Positions 38,601 through 45,467 of a stretch of DNA of 64,000 nt are shown one piece after another. Within the stretch, counting starts at the first letter, position 1; the number at the start of each line of letters is the position of its first letter. The notes under the pieces are model-generated. The model was not told the DNA's origin and ran no database searches. It worked only from the letters and a program-made list of their open reading frames with translations. A program made the position numbers and the translations under genes. Source of the DNA: Rhizobium sp. 9140 (GTDB lineage: Bacteria > Pseudomonadota > Alphaproteobacteria > Rhizobiales > Rhizobiaceae); the NCBI RefSeq assembly GCF_900067135.1, contig NZ_FJUR01000001.1:2173501-2237500 (forward strand), written 5' to 3'.

Positions 38601-39497
38601 ATGGCCCGGTCCACACTTTCTTTGAAACGCATCGCCGCATCGCGCGCTCTTGCCCTGGTTTTTGCCCTTGCCATGGGCTTCACCGAGGCGGGCGCTGCGA
38701 CGTTGAAGCCGTTCAAGGACGACCTTTTCGGATATGGTCGCATTCTGGAATCACGCGACGACGGAAACTGGCTGACGGTAGACTACGACGAGATGCGTGA
38801 CATCAATGGCCGGGACGAGATCCCCGAACGACGCGTCAAGCGGCCCTATGTCTCTCTGGGAATCAAGCGCGTGCAGGCGAACGAGACCGTCGATATTGGC
38901 GGGCGCGGGCTCGATGTGTTCCGGGTGGGCGCACCGGAGAATGCCGCCTTCACGGTGATCTTCATTCACGGTCGCGGCGGCGACCGGCGGCTGGGCGCAA
39001 ACGACTACTCCTTTGGCGGCAACTTCAATCGGCTAAAGAACCTCGCCGTGGAAAACGGCGGCGCCTATTACGCGCCAAGTGCCCGCTCTTTCGATACGGA
39101 TGGCGCTGCGGATATTGCCGGGCTGATCGATGCGCTGGCGCGTCGTTCTCCCGGTCGCCCGATCATCCTGTCCTGCGCGTCGATGGGCAGCTTCCTCTGC
39201 TGGGGCGTCACGCGAAATGCCGCGGCGGTCAAGCAACTCTCGGGGATGATGATCATGGGCGGGGCGACCGATCCCGACTTCGGCAAGAGCGCGGCCTTCG
39301 CTCGCAAGATGCCCATGTTCTTCAGCCATGGCAGCGCGGATGGCACGTACAAAGCGGAGGATCAGGCTGCACTCTACGGGCGTCTGAGGAAGGGCGGCTA
39401 CCCCACGCGCTTCGTCCTGTTCCAGACAGGCACGCACGGAACGCCGGTGAGGATGACAGACTGGCGGGATGCCATCAATTGGATCCTTTCGCGATAG
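38601..39497 (+). CDS. Secreted alpha/beta-hydrolase
   Basis: A 298-residue exported protein with a signal peptide (about 1-32, ending TEAGAA) and an alpha/beta-hydrolase fold. The oxyanion motif HGRGGD is at about 123-128, nucleophile S194 sits in a CASMG elbow (variant of GxSxG), a later Asp (DGTYKAEDQ) and H near GTHGTPV complete a plausible triad. The substrate is unknown. It precedes the UbiA/DprE1 cassette by 128 bp on the same strand, but a separate promoter is likely. Confidence 0.8.
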   Translation: MARSTLSLKRIAASRALALVFALAMGFTEAGAATLKPFKDDLFGYGRILESRDDGNWLTVDYDEMRDINGRDEIPERRVKRPYVSLGIKRVQANETVDIGGRGLDVFRVGAPENAAFTVIFIHGRGGDRRLGANDYSFGGNFNRLKNLAVENGGAYYAPSARSFDTDGAADIAGLIDALARRSPGRPIILSCASMGSFLCWGVTRNAAAVKQLSGMMIMGGATDPDFGKSAAFARKMPMFFSHGSADGTYKAEDQAALYGRLRKGGYPTRFVLFQTGTHGTPVRMTDWRDAINWILSR

Positions 39498-39625: not shown

Positions 39626-41068
39626 ATGGATGCGCGAACCGACACACGGCTTGTTCCGCTTTGCGTCGATTTGGATGGTACGCTTGTCGCAGCCGATACG
39701 CTGTGGGAAGGCGTCGCCGTCGTCCTGTTTCGCAATCCGCTGATGCTGTTCGCGCTCGTCGTCTGGGCGTTGCGGGGCAAAGCGCATCTCAAACACGAGG
39801 TCGCAGCCCGATCCGGACGCACGGGTGGCGACTGGCCCTATCGCCCCGAGGTGATGGAGCGGCTGCAGCGGGAGCGGGCGAGCGGCCGCGACATCGTCCT
39901 CGTCACCGGCGCCGCCGAACGGGTGGCGCTGGATGTCGCAGCCCATGCAGGCATCTTCACCGGCGTGCTGCATTCCTCATCCACCCACAACCTCACAAGC
40001 CATCGCAAGCGCGAGGAACTGGTCGCACGCTATGGCGAGGCCGGGTTCGACTACATGGGCAACAGCCGGGATGACGTGGCCGTGTTCGATGCCGCCCGCA
40101 CGGCCATCGTCGTCGCACCGGATCGCGCAGCGGAAACATGGCGCCGCCGACATGGTGCCGAGCGTCTTGAGACCGGCACGATCGGTATCAAGGACACGCT
40201 GAAGTCCATTCGTATCCATCAATGGGCGAAGAATATTCTGATCGCCGTGCCGATGGCGCTGGATCATGACATCCTCCAGCAAGAAGCGCTGATCAACACG
40301 ATCCTCGCCTTCTTTGCCTTCAGCTTCCTCGCCTCTGCGGTCTATGTCATCAACGACATCTCGGACCTGACGAATGACCGCCGCCATCCGAAGAAGCGGT
40401 TCCGGCCGCTGGCGAGCGGGCGCATGTCCGTCCCGACCGGCCTGGCACTCGCTGCAAGTCTCCTCATCGCCTCCGGCGCGCTGACGATGACGATGCCAGG
40501 AAACTTCATTCTGACACTTGGAATTTACCTCGCAATTACCACGGCGTACACATTTTTCCTAAAGCGGAAACTGCTGGTAGACGTCTTCACGCTGGCGGGC
40601 CTTTACACGATCCGCATCGTCGCAGGTGCGACGGCGACGGGAACGGAGCTTTCCTTCTGGCTTCTCGCCTTCTCGATCTTCTTCTTCCTCAGCCTTGCGC
40701 TGGTGAAACGCTATGTCGAGCTGGACGAGCATGGCGGCGAAGCCGGTGCGCAGGTTCCGGGGCGCGGCTATATGCAGGTCGATTTCGAGATGGTCGGCCA
40801 GGCCGGCGTTTCCTCGGCCTTCGCCTCCGCGCTCGTTCTCGCGCTCTACATCCACAGCGTCGAGATGCAGCAGATGTACAGCATGCCCGCCGCGCTCTGG
40901 CCGCTCTGCCCCATGGTCCTCTACATGCTGCTGCGCATCTGGATGCTCGCCCGACGTGGCGCGCTGCATGAGGATCCGGTCGTTTTCATCATGCGCGACT
41001 GGCGCAGCATCGCCACCATGGCCGCAGGCGGTGTGCTGGTGATGATCGGCGCGGTCGGTATTCAATGA
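39626..41068 (+). CDS. HAD phosphatase-UbiA prenyltransferase fusion (DPPR-synthase-like)
   Basis: A 480-residue fusion. Residues 1-180 are a HAD domain (motif I VDLDGTL with D15 and D17; TGAAERVALDVAAH; the acidic YMGNSRDDVAVFDAA motif). Residues 190-480 are a UbiA-family polytopic membrane domain starting RIHQWAKNILIAVPMALDHD. Its two Asp-rich motifs are NDISDLTNDRRHPKKRFRPL and DVFTLAGLYTIRIVAGA, matching decaprenyl-phosphate 5-phosphoribosyltransferase (Rv3806c, NoeC). It should attach phosphoribose from PRPP to polyprenyl phosphate, and the HAD part could remove the 5-phosphate. The stop overlaps the next start (ATGA). Confidence 0.82.
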   Translation: MDARTDTRLVPLCVDLDGTLVAADTLWEGVAVVLFRNPLMLFALVVWALRGKAHLKHEVAARSGRTGGDWPYRPEVMERLQRERASGRDIVLVTGAAERVALDVAAHAGIFTGVLHSSSTHNLTSHRKREELVARYGEAGFDYMGNSRDDVAVFDAARTAIVVAPDRAAETWRRRHGAERLETGTIGIKDTLKSIRIHQWAKNILIAVPMALDHDILQQEALINTILAFFAFSFLASAVYVINDISDLTNDRRHPKKRFRPLASGRMSVPTGLALAASLLIASGALTMTMPGNFILTLGIYLAITTAYTFFLKRKLLVDVFTLAGLYTIRIVAGATATGTELSFWLLAFSIFFFLSLALVKRYVELDEHGGEAGAQVPGRGYMQVDFEMVGQAGVSSAFASALVLALYIHSVEMQQMYSMPAALWPLCPMVLYMLLRIWMLARRGALHEDPVVFIMRDWRSIATMAAGGVLVMIGAVGIQ

Positions 41069-42402
41069 CGGGCGCGACGAAAACACCGATGGCCGTGAAT
41101 TTCGACAGCTGGGGCCGCCTCGACACGCGCGGGCGCCATACCATCAGCCCGGATGCCTTCGAGGACGATATCCATACGGCCGCACCGGGCGGATATCTGC
41201 CTTTTGGCAACGGCCGCTCCTATGGCGATAGCTGCCATAATGATCGGGGCCTCCTGATCGACAACCGCAAGCGCGGTCGCATCCACGCCTTCGACCCGGG
41301 TACCGGCATTCTCTCCGCCGAAGCCGGCGTCACTCTGTCGGCCATTCTCGCGCGCGCCGTGCCGCATCGCTTCTTCCTGCCGGTCACCCCCGGCACGGCC
41401 CATGTCACGCTTGGCGGCGCGATCGCCAACGATGTACATGGCAAGAACCACCACGCCCGCGGGACCTTCGGAAACCATATCCGGCGGCTGACGCTGCTGC
41501 GCTCCGACGGTGGCACTCTCACATGCTCGGAGACCGAGAACCCGGAGATGTTCAGCGCCACGATCGGCGGCATGGGCCTGACCGGCCTTATCCTTGATGT
41601 CGACCTCCAGATGATGAAGGTGCCCTCAGCCCACATCCAGCAGCACGCCATCCGCTTCGACAGCCTCGAAGACTATTTCGGCATGATCGACCGCGTCGAT
41701 GCCGAGCATGAATATTCCGTCGCCTGGATCGATCAACTGGCCACGGGCCGCAAGGCGGGCAGGGGCATACTCCTGGCCGGCGACCATGCCGACGCCTCCT
41801 GCGAATTCCCCGATCTGCCGCGCGGACGCACGCTCGCGGTCCCGGTCACGCCGCCCTTCAGCCTTCTCAACCGCTTGACCCTTACGGCCTTCAATGCCGC
41901 CTATATCCGCAAGGCGAAACCCGGCGAGACGGTCGAGACGGTGAAATGGTCCGGCTATTTCTATCCTCTCGATGCGATCAGGAACTGGAACCGTCTTTAC
42001 GGGCCGAAGGGCCTATACCAGCACCAGAGCGTTTATCCCGCCGATGTCGCACCTGCGGTCACCGCGCGGCTGATGGAAGCGGCCCGAGACGCCGGACATG
42101 GCTCCTTCCTGACGGTTCTGAAACGCTTTGGCGAGCACCGTTCGCGCGGCCTGTTTTCCTTCCCGCGCCCCGGTTTCACGCTCACCCTCGATTTCGCCAA
42201 CCAGGGCGAGGGCACCCTGAAGCTCCTCGATAGGCTCGACCGGATCGTTGTGTCTGCTGGCGGTGCGGTCAACCCCTACAAGGATGCGCGTATGAGCCCG
42301 CAGACCTTCGAGGCGTCTTTCCCGGAATGGCGAAAGCTCGAGTCGATGCGGGATCCCGCGATGATGTCGGACTTCTGGCGGCGCACCGCTATGGCTGTCT
42401 AA
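41065..42402 (+). CDS. DprE1-like decaprenylphosphoryl-ribose 2'-oxidase homolog
   Basis: A 445-residue FAD-binding oxidase (FAD_binding_4, VAO fold). FAD-site motifs are PFGNGRSYGDS at 46-56, GTAHVTLGGAIANDVHGKNHH at 110-130 including the HGKNHH block shared with mycobacterial DprE1, and GNH at 136-138. YPLDAIRNWNRLYGPKGLY and the C-terminal NPYKDAR (K406, counterpart of catalytic Lys418) are also DprE1-like. The benzothiazinone-reactive Cys387 is replaced by Thr (T374). In mycobacteria DprE1 oxidises polyprenyl-phosphoryl-ribose at C2'. It is translationally coupled to the UbiA fusion. Confidence 0.88.
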   Translation: MTGATKTPMAVNFDSWGRLDTRGRHTISPDAFEDDIHTAAPGGYLPFGNGRSYGDSCHNDRGLLIDNRKRGRIHAFDPGTGILSAEAGVTLSAILARAVPHRFFLPVTPGTAHVTLGGAIANDVHGKNHHARGTFGNHIRRLTLLRSDGGTLTCSETENPEMFSATIGGMGLTGLILDVDLQMMKVPSAHIQQHAIRFDSLEDYFGMIDRVDAEHEYSVAWIDQLATGRKAGRGILLAGDHADASCEFPDLPRGRTLAVPVTPPFSLLNRLTLTAFNAAYIRKAKPGETVETVKWSGYFYPLDAIRNWNRLYGPKGLYQHQSVYPADVAPAVTARLMEAARDAGHGSFLTVLKRFGEHRSRGLFSFPRPGFTLTLDFANQGEGTLKLLDRLDRIVVSAGGAVNPYKDARMSPQTFEASFPEWRKLESMRDPAMMSDFWRRTAMAV

Positions 42403-42528
42403 AGCACGGGATACGATCAATTTTAATAAAAGAAATCAGCAAGTTTCACCGAATAGTGGATTCTCTTCCGTAAGGTGAAATCCAGCCAAGAACGAGCCCG
42501 GACAGGGTGCCCGAAAAGGGAATACGAC
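42403..42528. promoter_or_regulatory. AT-rich spacer inside the pentose-lipid cassette
   Basis: A 126-bp gap between the DprE1-like and small-transporter genes. It is AT-rich (TTTTAATAAAAG at 42421-42432) and contains an inverted repeat, TTTCACC at 42444-42450 with GGTGAAA at 42474-42480. It may hold an internal promoter for the last three genes, or a processing hairpin. Confidence 0.4.
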
Positions 42529-42969
42529 ATGAAATATTTGGCCTTCATATTGTTTACCGTGCTGACCAATGCGGCGGCACAGCTGATGCTGAAGCAGGGC
42601 ATGCTGAGCCTCGGTCCTTTGACGTTCACGCCCGATACCGCGATCGCGCGGTTCTTTCAGATCCTGTTCAACCCCTGGGTCTTTGCCGGGCTTGCCACCT
42701 TCGCCATCTCGATGGTGTCGCATCTCTACGTGCTGTCGAAGGTCGAGTTGTCCTTCGCCTACCCCTTCCTCAGTCTTGCCTATGTGGCCGTCGCCGTTTT
42801 CGCCTACTTCATCTTCCGCGAGGACCTGAATGCCTGGCGCATCGCCGGTATCGGCTTCATCTGCGTGGGAACCGTCCTCATCGCACAGTCCGGCCGCACG
42901 ACGCCCGCGGAAGCCGCAGCGATCGATACCCCGGCCACAAAATCCATCCATATTGGGAGCCCGACATGA
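42529..42969 (+). CDS. Small EamA/ArnE-ArnF-like membrane transporter
   Basis: A 146-residue four-helix membrane protein, one EamA/SMR-like unit. The N-terminal MKYLAFILFTVLTNAAAQLM and the FAYPFLSLAYVAVAVFAYFI segment resemble ArnE/ArnF, the heterodimer proposed to flip undecaprenyl-phosphate-aminoarabinose. A polar tail of 20 residues follows. The AAAAGGG SD (42514-42520) supports ATG 42529. Its stop overlaps the next start by 4 bp (ATGA). Position in a lipid-linked-sugar cassette suggests it moves the lipid-linked product across the membrane; this is inference. Confidence 0.75.
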   Translation: MKYLAFILFTVLTNAAAQLMLKQGMLSLGPLTFTPDTAIARFFQILFNPWVFAGLATFAISMVSHLYVLSKVELSFAYPFLSLAYVAVAVFAYFIFREDLNAWRIAGIGFICVGTVLIAQSGRTTPAEAAAIDTPATKSIHIGSPT

Positions 42970-43982
42970 AACACGTCATTTTCGGAGGCGACGGCTTCGT
43001 CGGTCGCCATCTCGCCGAGCGCCTCGTCAACGAAGGCGAACAGGTTCTGATTGCCGACATCGTCAAGTCCGACCTGCCGCATTACGCCCATGGCCGTGTC
43101 CGCTTCGTCCATTGCGACGTGACGGATCTCGATCAGGTGATGAAGGTCGATATCGGCCCCGACGATATGGTCTACAACATGGCGGCCAAGATGCTGTCGC
43201 CGCTGCAGGTGCGCGCCAAACGCTGGAAGTTCTTCTGGCCGGTCAACTATTACGGTGCCGAAAATATCATGAAGGCGACGGCGGCTTCGGGCGCCAATCG
43301 TCTCGTCCAGTTCACGACCGACATGATCTACGGCCACACGGTGCAATCGCCGCAGGCGGAGGACCATCCGGTCAAGCCGCTCGGCGAGTACGGCAAGTCG
43401 AAGTGGGCGACGGAGCAACTCTGCCACGCCTATCGCGAGAAGGGCATGCGGATCTCGATCTTCCGTCCGCGTCTGATCATCGGTCCGGGCCGCCTCGGCA
43501 TCCTGGAAAAGCTGTTCAAGCTGATCGACGCCAACCTGCCGGTGCCGATGATCGGCTCGGGCAAGGCGCCTTACCAGTTCATCTCCGTGTTCGATTGCGC
43601 CGAAGCCGCGCGTCTCGCCTGGAAGGGCGGCGTGCCGAACGAAGCCTATAATCTCGGCTCCGACAATCCGCCCTCCGTGCGCCAGCTTCTGGGCGGTCTG
43701 ATCCAGCATGCCGGCTCCAAATCCATCCTGATTCCCACGCCAGGCTTTGCCGTCAAGGCAACGCTTGCTGCCTTCGATGCGATCAACCTGCCGATCATGG
43801 ACCCGGAACAGTACCTGATCGCCGACGAGATGTGCGTTCGCGAGACCGGCAAGTTGAAGCAGGAACTCGGCTGGAAGGCCCAGTTCAACGACGGCGCCAT
43901 GCTGATCGCCGCCTATGACGAATATCGCGCGAAGAAATCCAAAGGCACCGTCGGCACGCCCGCCGCCCTGCCGGCCGAATAA
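42966..43982 (+). CDS. NAD-dependent epimerase/dehydratase-family protein (extended SDR)
   Basis: A 338-residue extended SDR. The Rossmann motif GGDGFVG is at 7-13, the catalytic Thr lies in FTTDMIYG (117-119 region) and the YxxxK pair is Y142/K146 (EYGKSKWATE). RPRLIIGPGRLGILEKLF is typical of NDP-sugar or lipid-associated SDRs such as HpnA. It could be the reductase (DprE2 role) or an epimerase acting on the lipid-linked sugar, but it is not the short SDR class of mycobacterial DprE2. It overlaps the transporter gene, and the aminotransferase starts 15 bp after its stop. Confidence 0.8.
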   Translation: MKHVIFGGDGFVGRHLAERLVNEGEQVLIADIVKSDLPHYAHGRVRFVHCDVTDLDQVMKVDIGPDDMVYNMAAKMLSPLQVRAKRWKFFWPVNYYGAENIMKATAASGANRLVQFTTDMIYGHTVQSPQAEDHPVKPLGEYGKSKWATEQLCHAYREKGMRISIFRPRLIIGPGRLGILEKLFKLIDANLPVPMIGSGKAPYQFISVFDCAEAARLAWKGGVPNEAYNLGSDNPPSVRQLLGGLIQHAGSKSILIPTPGFAVKATLAAFDAINLPIMDPEQYLIADEMCVRETGKLKQELGWKAQFNDGAMLIAAYDEYRAKKSKGTVGTPAALPAE

Positions 43983-43997
43983 GAGGGAACGATCAAG

Positions 43998-45467
43998 ATG
44001 CTCGATACGCCCGCCCGTGTCCTCGTTGACTCCACCGCCATCGACGCCCCCCAGCCCGTGCGCAAACCGGTTGCCAAGCCCGATCTCCTGACGGTCGAGG
44101 ACGCCAAGGCCCTGACCGTTCCGGAAATGACGACCCTCTTCAAGGATCACGTCAATCCCGGCCAGCTCCACTTCATGAAGCTGCTAGGCTTCCACAAGGT
44201 GAAGATCGAGAGCGCCGAGGGGATGTATTACACCGACCAGAACGGCCGGAAGATCCTCGATTTCTTCGGCGGTTTCGGCTCGCTCGCCTTCGGTCACAAC
44301 CATCCGCGTCTGCTCGAAGCCCGCAAGCGTTTTCAGGATGAGAACCGCCACGAGATCGCCATTGCCTTCATGTCGCAATACGCGGCGGCCTTTGCGAAGA
44401 ATCTCGCGACCGTATCGCCCGGCGAACTCGACATGGTCTTCCTCGGTTCGTCCGGTTCCGAGGTCATGGAAGCCGCCGTCAAGCTTGCCGAACGCGCAGC
44501 CGGCCCGAAGCGGCCGAAGGTGGTCTATGCCGAGAATTCGTTCCACGGCAAGACGAAGGGCGTGCTGAACATCACCGACGGCGCGCTCTACCGCGCCGAT
44601 TTCGCGGTCTCCGGGAATACTGTCCGCGTACCCTTCGGCAATATCCAGGCAATCGAGAACGCCTTCCGCGCCGATCCCCAGATCGGAGCGATCGTTCTGG
44701 AAACCATCCAGGGCGGCGGTGGCATCATACGCGCACCCGATGGTTTCTGGACGGAACTCCGCGCGCTCTGCGACCGCTACGGCGTCATCTGGGTCGCGGA
44801 CGAGGTCCAGTGCGGTTACGGCCGTTCGGGCCGGTTCTTCGCCTTCGAGCATGAGAATGTGGTGCCGGACATCACCGCGCTCGCCAAGTCGCTCGGCGGC
44901 GGTAAGGCGGCCGTGGGCGCCATGATCGCCCGGCGCGAGATCTATATGAAAGCCTATGGCACGCCGAAGACGGCGATGATCCACGCGATGGCGACCTTCG
45001 GCGGTATGGGCGAGGCCTGCGTCACCGCCATCGAAGCGCTGAACATTCTGTATGACGACGGCTTGATCGACAATGCGGCGGAGCAGGGCGCCTACCTGCT
45101 GGCCCGGCTCGACGCACTGCGCGAGAAATATCCAAAGATCATCAAGGAGGTCCGGGGGCAGGGCCTCATGGTCGGGCTCGAGTTCCAGGACTTCAGCCAG
45201 ACGATGCCGCTAGTGCTGCGACCCGTCATCGGCATGCTCGACGACAAGCTCAAGGGCTCGCTCTCCGGTTTCATCGGCGCGCTGCTCCTGCGGGACTACG
45301 ACACGCTCGTCGCCTTCACCGAATACAACCGCAACGTTATCCGCCTGGAGCCGCCGCTGATCTGCGAGCGCGCCCATGTCGATCAGTTCGTCGATGCGCT
45401 CGACGATCTCCTCGGCCGCGGCATCATTCGGATCGTCAAGGATTTCGTCGGCAGTCAGATGGGCTGA
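43998..45467 (+). CDS. Class III PLP-dependent aminotransferase
   Basis: A 489-residue aminotransferase of fold type I, class III. Visible are the N-terminal FFGGFGSLAFGHNHP, GSSGSEVMEAAVKLA (PLP phosphate site), SFHGKTKG, the DEVQCGYGR motif with D268, and the internal-aldimine Lys K297 in ITALAKSLGGG. It differs from the DegT/DnrJ sugar aminotransferases usually found with nucleotide sugars. Some class III enzymes (for example HpnO) act on lipid-linked aldehydes, so a membrane lipid substrate is plausible. It is the last gene of the coupled cassette; tpiA follows after 140 bp. Confidence 0.82.
   Translation: MLDTPARVLVDSTAIDAPQPVRKPVAKPDLLTVEDAKALTVPEMTTLFKDHVNPGQLHFMKLLGFHKVKIESAEGMYYTDQNGRKILDFFGGFGSLAFGHNHPRLLEARKRFQDENRHEIAIAFMSQYAAAFAKNLATVSPGELDMVFLGSSGSEVMEAAVKLAERAAGPKRPKVVYAENSFHGKTKGVLNITDGALYRADFAVSGNTVRVPFGNIQAIENAFRADPQIGAIVLETIQGGGGIIRAPDGFWTELRALCDRYGVIWVADEVQCGYGRSGRFFAFEHENVVPDITALAKSLGGGKAAVGAMIARREIYMKAYGTPKTAMIHAMATFGGMGEACVTAIEALNILYDDGLIDNAAEQGAYLLARLDALREKYPKIIKEVRGQGLMVGLEFQDFSQTMPLVLRPVIGMLDDKLKGSLSGFIGALLLRDYDTLVAFTEYNRNVIRLEPPLICERAHVDQFVDALDDLLGRGIIRIVKDFVGSQMG

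Follow-up and report, generated by a model that had tools for sequence, protein, structure and literature searches.

The window analysed here is a stretch of 64,000 nucleotides of the Rhizobium sp. 9140 genome (contig NZ_FJUR01000001.1, positions 2,173,501 to 2,237,500), and its positions 39626-45467 carry five genes, all on the plus strand, whose products resemble the enzymes of a lipid-linked pentose pathway. The genes, with the Pfam matches of their products, are:

39626..41068, plus strand: HAD-UbiA fusion protein of 480 amino acids (PF01040, 80.7 bits; PF12710, 31.1 bits)
41065..42402, plus strand: DprE1-type flavin adenine dinucleotide (FAD) oxidase of 445 amino acids (PF01565, FAD_binding_4)
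42529..42969, plus strand: ArnE/ArnF-like small membrane protein of the EamA/SMR type, 146 amino acids (PF00892, 31.1 bits against a cut-off of 28.2)
42966..43982, plus strand: extended short-chain dehydrogenase/reductase (SDR) of 338 amino acids (PF01370, 125.4 bits)
43998..45467, plus strand: class III pyridoxal phosphate (PLP) aminotransferase, here AT3, of 489 amino acids (PF00202, 280.9 bits against a cut-off of 30.5)

The Pfam domains of all five proteins score above the Pfam cut-offs, and the consecutive order, coordinates and domains agree with those given by an earlier sequence-only reading of this DNA. The close spacing which that reading had described is present in the DNA: there are two ATGA overlaps, at 41065-41068 between HAD-UbiA and DprE1 and at 42966-42969 between the transporter and the SDR, a gap of 15 bases between the SDR and AT3, and 126 bases between DprE1 and the ATG of the transporter at 42529, for which the GTG at 42475 is a possible alternative start. 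The location between core genes was likewise found as claimed: the cluster is preceded by a DNA gyrase B/ParE-type topoisomerase gene and followed by those for triosephosphate isomerase, SecG and CTP synthase. Directly 5' of the operon lies an alpha/beta-hydrolase-like gene (window 38601-39497), which is kept in the Rhizobium-Ensifer type of locus. A PADLOC search for anti-phage defence systems gave zero matches among the five proteins.

The HAD-UbiA protein is predicted to be a polyprenyl-phosphate phosphoribosyltransferase with a fused 5'-phosphatase. It scores 584.5 bits against the NCBIfam model NF006088 (cut-off 351), and its closest sequence in the PDB is the Mycobacterium tuberculosis (Mtb) DPPR synthase 8j8j (E 3.7e-30). 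The UbiA residues N243, D244, D247, D251, R362 and E365 (NDxxDxxxD and RxxE motifs) are unchanged in 118/118 homologues, and in the HAD domain the nucleophile D15 is found in 114 and D17 in 111 of the 118, with four gaps at each position. The UbiA catalytic residues are those of the Citrobacter HAD-UbiA enzyme, whose biochemical characterisation is described in the available parts of PMC11127046. Two features of three-component pentofuranose systems, a UbiA-type phosphoribosyltransferase and a HAD phosphatase, are both present.

The second protein is predicted to be the 2'-oxidase of the lipid-linked pentose. Its closest PDB sequences are structures of Mtb DprE1 (best E 2.5e-69), and its best NCBIfam model, NF053785, gives 344.1 bits, below the equivalog cut-off of 500, although the homology extends along most of the protein. 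Residue roles and numbering are those of the Mtb enzyme, read in part from an alignment with Mtb DprE1. On this basis the window protein keeps the equivalents of Y60, H132, K134, W230, Y314, Q334, Q336, K367 and K418, and has Thr at the equivalents of N385 and C387; the Y314 equivalent is Y, F or H among DprE1 homologues. Domain, motif and structure-sequence matches support, by homology, the three early steps that had been proposed from the sequence, namely phosphoribosyl transfer, dephosphorylation and C2' oxidation.

AT3 carries an Aminotran_3 domain with its PLP lysine K297, which is unchanged in 102/102 homologues together with D268, S154, F182, H183 and T333. Distant members of the family are 62-76% identical to it. 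The closest PDB sequences are PigE-type and putrescine aminotransferases, among them entry 4ppm, which we take to be PigE. The best NCBIfam aminotransferase model is also PigE (NF053554), with 348.5 bits against a cut-off of 850, and the names carried by the 120 closest relatives listed are generic (aspartate aminotransferase family protein, aminotransferase class III, PigE and similar ones).

The probable place of AT3 emerges from a comparison with other DprE1 loci. In other clusters a classical SDR, termed DprE2, comes after DprE1. We compared 166 DprE1 loci (21 from relatives, 80 from named species, 30 from a class sample and 35 from an order sample), with cut-offs of 500 bits for AT3 and of 100 bits for DprE2 (same strand, no more than 3 kb from DprE1). 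AT3 was present in 102 loci, DprE2 in 55, neither in 9 and both in none; after removal of four duplicates the 162 distinct loci gave 98, 55, 9 and 0. The named-species loci are the best 80 of at least 589 related stretches, so that this part of the set leans toward close relatives. In the evenly drawn class and order samples, 68 distinct DprE1 genomes, the source genome being scored from the window itself, comprised 13 with AT3, 52 with DprE2 and 3 with neither; if the two genes were independent, the absence of any overlap would have a chance probability of 1.8e-11, a figure not corrected for relatedness.

Genome-wide the same separation was seen, since a search for DprE2 at E<=1e-28 found it in 0/13 AT3 genomes, the source genome among them, and in 6/6 controls of the DprE2 type. 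Conversely, AT3 occurred only in genomes with DprE1: 12/12 in the order sample (249 genomes) and 2/2 in the class sample (289 genomes), with the source genome in both, hence 13/13 distinct genomes, the best few candidates per genome being scored. A phylum sample of 329 genomes yielded five AT3 genomes, all of one family, four of which were already in the other samples; the fifth (G764) has the SDR and transporter beside AT3, with its DprE1 outside the flanking DNA covered, and is not among the 13. Loci holding DprE1 and HAD-UbiA but no AT3 also exist, most of them with DprE2. In two genomes (G468 and G487) AT3 is present with no SDR at E<=1e-60 and no DprE2 at E<=1e-28, so that AT3 is the sole candidate found there for using up the DprE1 ketone. 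AT3 thus seems to stand in for DprE2, and with AT3 in place of a DprE2 that was not found, an amino-pentose is the likely product rather than arabinose.

The replacement may have occurred more than once. In a tree of 101 DprE1 sequences (40 with AT3, 55 with DprE2, 6 with neither), built by a quick method with no bootstrap, the label switches between AT3 and DprE2 three times if the sequences with neither are ignored, and the AT3 label needs seven changes if they are included. The three placements of AT3 are the main rhizobial clade, the pair of L111 (a Methyloprofundus metagenome-assembled genome) and L181, split from that clade with moderate support, and L132, which sits in a distant clade with good support. 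In these three loci outside the main rhizobial clade, AT3 comes immediately after DprE1. In L132 the transporter, SDR and AT3 are 67%, 58% and 68% identical, but DprE1 only 39%, as if the first three had moved in as a set.

Rhizobium, Ensifer, Mesorhizobium, Aminobacter, Phyllobacterium, Brucella, Jiella, Aureimonas, Fulvimarina and other bacteria carry the five genes, mostly in the same order, and outside the Rhizobium-Ensifer group the flanking genes differ; an order largely preserved across many genera argues that the arrangement is not due to chance. DprE1 is nevertheless present in only 22/61 of the relatives searched, the source genome included. Loci of the Bosea type carry two half-operons, both kept. 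In Hoeflea olei (L052, L192) the transporter-SDR-AT3 part lies beside parE-like and hydrolase genes, with HAD-UbiA and DprE1 elsewhere. The retention of both halves in split operons argues for one pathway. The sequence-only reading rightly named the SDR, small transporter and aminotransferase as partners. As to the independent occurrence that this reading had set against itself, AT3 was never found without DprE1 in the 13 genomes and split operons keep both parts, whereas DprE1 and HAD-UbiA are also met in the absence of AT3. The upstream flank of the Mesorhizobium-type loci encodes a protein of the sarcosine oxidase type and a mechanosensitive channel, neither of which belongs to the pathway.

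The SDR is predicted to epimerise or reduce the lipid-linked pentose. Its YxxxK residues Y142 and K146 are found in 101/101 homologues and the nucleotide-binding glycines in 100/101, and its closest PDB sequences are various extended SDRs. In Citrobacter O2, as the available parts of PMC11127046 describe, the SDR ORF13 converts lipid-linked ribofuranose to xylofuranose; of the motifs of ORF13-type enzymes the window SDR has YxxxK, and its glycine motif is GGxGxxG, with Gly replacing the first Thr of TGxxGxxG. Genome G530 (L184) holds HAD-UbiA, the small transporter and a 43% identical SDR homologue in one locus, with no DprE1 or AT3 match. Since this gene set resembles the Citrobacter O2 system in composition, epimerisation at C3' is favoured for the SDR, with low confidence. 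The SDR is present in 98/102 AT3 loci (94/98 distinct ones) and missing from L027, L111, L181 and L183, and is therefore not indispensable to the AT3 association.

A candidate for the final transfer, a GT-C-like glycosyltransferase, is encoded about 203 kb from the cluster, outside the window. Its predicted structure (predicted local distance difference test score, pLDDT, 91.7) has ArnT as top fold match, followed by other GT-C enzymes including AftA. Relatives of this protein lie near AT3 in 32/98 distinct loci, convergent in 30 of the 32. The family was rejected as a universal partner of AT3, as 10/12 order-sample AT3 genomes are without it at E<=1e-20. Multi-helix proteins with PMT_2 matches, two above and two below the cut-off, adjoin the AT3 loci L176, L180 and L181, and five further multi-helix neighbours at AT3 loci of genomes without the GT-C family carry no family assignment.

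The core chemistry, composed of HAD-UbiA, the DprE1-type oxidase, the ArnE/F-like transporter, the extended SDR and AT3, is well supported, and we think it fairly probable that the cluster makes a polyprenyl-phosphate-linked amino-pentofuranose, i.e. a 2-amino-2-deoxypentofuranose. HAD-UbiA would transfer phosphoribose from phosphoribosyl pyrophosphate (PRPP) to polyprenyl phosphate and its HAD domain would remove the phosphate. DprE1, by homology, would then oxidise C2' to a ketone. AT3, as its replacement of DprE2 suggests, would aminate this ketone to the lipid-linked 2-amino-2-deoxypentofuranose, where DprE2 would reduce it to arabinose. The SDR might alter the configuration at another carbon, most likely C3', and the ArnE/F-like protein, as a monomer or dimer, would move the lipid across the inner membrane. 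The neighbourhood of its relatives and its fold suggest that the ArnT-like GT-C enzyme encoded elsewhere would transfer the amino sugar to an envelope glycan or lipid. The identity of the product, its stereochemistry, the position of the nitrogen, the acceptor and the physiological role are all what we infer from the genes. There is about an even chance that the wider picture holds, in which AT3 has repeatedly replaced DprE2, a large alphaproteobacterial group aminates the sugar on its lipid carrier to 2-amino-2-deoxypentofuranose, and an ArnT-like transferase places a cationic furanose on an envelope glycan or lipid, as a route parallel to Arn starting from PRPP. Of the sequence-only reading, which had proposed a lipid-linked pentose for the envelope, the lipid-linked pentose pathway stands; what changes is that DprE2 was not found and AT3 is there instead, which makes an amino-pentose likelier than arabinose.

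A plain arabinose product was not retained as first choice, DprE2 having been found in 0/13 AT3 genomes. The cluster could still make an ordinary arabinofuranose or xylofuranose donor if the SDR were the reductase replacing DprE2 and AT3 served another reaction nearby, an explanation which we regard as unlikely. It would fit the company that the SDR keeps with AT3 in 94 of the 98 distinct loci, and also two gene sets: genome G364 (L151), which has everything but AT3 (E<=1e-75), including HAD-UbiA, DprE1, transporter, SDR and GT-C, and G530, which with HAD-UbiA, transporter and SDR but neither DprE1 nor AT3 resembles the Xylf system as outlined in the available parts of PMC11127046. However, four AT3 loci have no SDR, and G468 and G487 lack both SDR and DprE2 genome-wide at the thresholds used. 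G364 moreover holds a DprE2-like short-chain dehydrogenase gene elsewhere (L186, 5459-6226), so the SDR need not be its reductase; this gene adjoins one for a hydroxyacid dehydrogenase and is therefore not tied to the pathway by its place.

The amine may instead sit at another carbon, with the SDR or a DprE1 of altered pocket oxidising C3' or C5' and AT3 giving a 3- or 5-amino pentofuranose; this too we hold to be improbable. Class III aminotransferases often aminate terminal aldehydes, and in the main rhizobial AT3 clade DprE1 has its own signature, T374/N403/Y405, at the equivalents of Mtb C387, Y415 and A417. We considered this signature as an adaptation to AT3 and dropped the idea, since it is absent from the independent AT3 loci L132, L111 and L181 and present in L151, L052 and L060, where no AT3 scored in the locus. 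Being split from the presence of AT3 in this way, it is a mark of the clade and no evidence for the chemistry. At positions 374, 403 and 405 the DprE1 proteins of L111, L181 and L132 have A, Y and A, as is typical of DprE2-type clusters, and this occurrence of AT3 with an ordinary-looking DprE1 favours the usual C2' ketone as its substrate; AT3 loci without SDR also speak against oxidation at another carbon by the SDR. It is very improbable that the substrate of AT3 and the SDR is the glycan acceptor or an unrelated nucleotide sugar and that the two are linked to the other genes by co-transcription alone, for although the link between AT3 and DprE1 is a genomic one, every AT3 genome found in the class and order samples had DprE1 as well, and the alternation of AT3 with DprE2 (0/162 loci with both) would have to be coincidence.

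Several points weigh against the amino-pentofuranose. Characterised class III aminotransferases mostly use aldehydes or linear ketones, and ketones on sugar rings are usually handled by another aminotransferase family. The DprE1 pocket of the main AT3 clade means that the oxidised position might differ there. The locus counts take relatedness into account by the DprE1 tree only. The GT-C family is found in only 2/12 order-sample AT3 genomes (E<=1e-20), and also in one order-sample genome (G537) without AT3 or DprE1 match. Finally, nine DprE1 loci carry neither AT3 nor DprE2. In L060 the contig end cuts the locus and a 95-residue piece of AT3 is visible; in L112 the contig ends 0.6 kb past DprE1, and the open frame there matches no known family; in L052 (Hoeflea olei) AT3 is elsewhere in the genome. 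Three Sinorhizobium/Ensifer loci (L047, L048, L083) have an isolated DprE1 (about 9.8-11.3 kb) between the hydrolase gene and tpiA, with the other four genes gone from the locus and S, N or V at the K418 equivalent, and their genomes show no AT3 at E<=1e-75. L147, L168 and L151 fall under none of these cases, the neighbours checked at the first two belonging to unrelated families only.

Among known systems the best reading is that the cluster is a variant of the three-component pentofuranose systems of 2024 (PMC11127046), the closest characterised ones. As described there, Citrobacter youngae O1 and O2 share with it a HAD-UbiA, which there makes und-P-ribofuranose, and (in O2) an SDR, which there alters the pentose; they also have a flippase and a GT-C enzyme, for both of which the genome studied here holds candidates. 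They differ in having a MATE-type flippase, the GT-C (GT136) in the locus, and no reliance on DprE1 or an aminotransferase. The window cluster has an ArnE/F-like candidate transporter together with DprE1 and AT3, and its candidate GT-C gene lies outside the locus. With the mycobacterial decaprenylphosphoryl-arabinose pathway (Rv3806c, Rv3807c, DprE1, DprE2) it has in common the UbiA-type phosphoribosyltransferase and a DprE1 with most of the catalytic residues; it differs by the fused HAD, where mycobacteria use a separate, unrelated phosphatase, by the lack of any DprE2 found, by the added AT3 and extended SDR, and by Thr at DprE1 Cys387. With no DprE2 found and DprE1 below the equivalog cut-off, it is not a strict member of that pathway. 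The relation to the noe genes suggested by the sequence-only reading holds in the sense of a cousin system: noeCHOP/noeN, as presented in the available parts of PMC5080398, share the rhizobial chemistry of the decaprenylphosphoryl-arabinose type, but form a symbiosis-plasmid operon placing arabinose on Nod factors, whereas the window locus lies between core genes and has an aminotransferase.

The Arn pathway (ArnB, ArnE/F, ArnT), which makes 4-amino-4-deoxy-L-arabinose, is similar in its polyprenyl-phosphate amino-pentose, here a predicted one, in the ArnE/F-like transporter and in the ArnT fold match. In Arn the amination takes place on the nucleotide sugar by an aminotransferase of a different family, whereas the enzymes of the window cluster are predicted to aminate the lipid-linked sugar, in a pathway starting from PRPP. 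Among open-licence PMC papers, looked through for DprE1 together with an aminotransferase and under the names of amino-pentoses, we found none describing such a pathway, and the available parts of a Brucella ovis flavoproteome study (PMC9045290) contain nothing on DprE1 function. If the proposal is true, an amination branch would be added to the lipid-linked pentofuranose pathways, a family including the tuberculosis drug target DprE1, and a sugar is predicted that arabinose analysis would miss. It would also give a function to a widely kept, generically named aminotransferase and, speculatively, may provide rhizobia and their relatives with a cationic surface sugar.

The ArnE/F-like protein of the window scores 56.7 bits against the NCBIfam model for ArnF (cut-off 99) and 40.5 bits against that for ArnE (cut-off 92), below both, and is found in 100/102 AT3 loci, duplicates included; it is the candidate flippase for the lipid-linked sugar. 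A membrane protein of the lysylphosphatidylglycerol-synthase type, assigned by Pfam in L111 and L113 and by BLAST matches in the others, is encoded with UbiA and DprE1 in L111, L112, L113, L134, L139, L140 and L144, and could be an alternative flippase.

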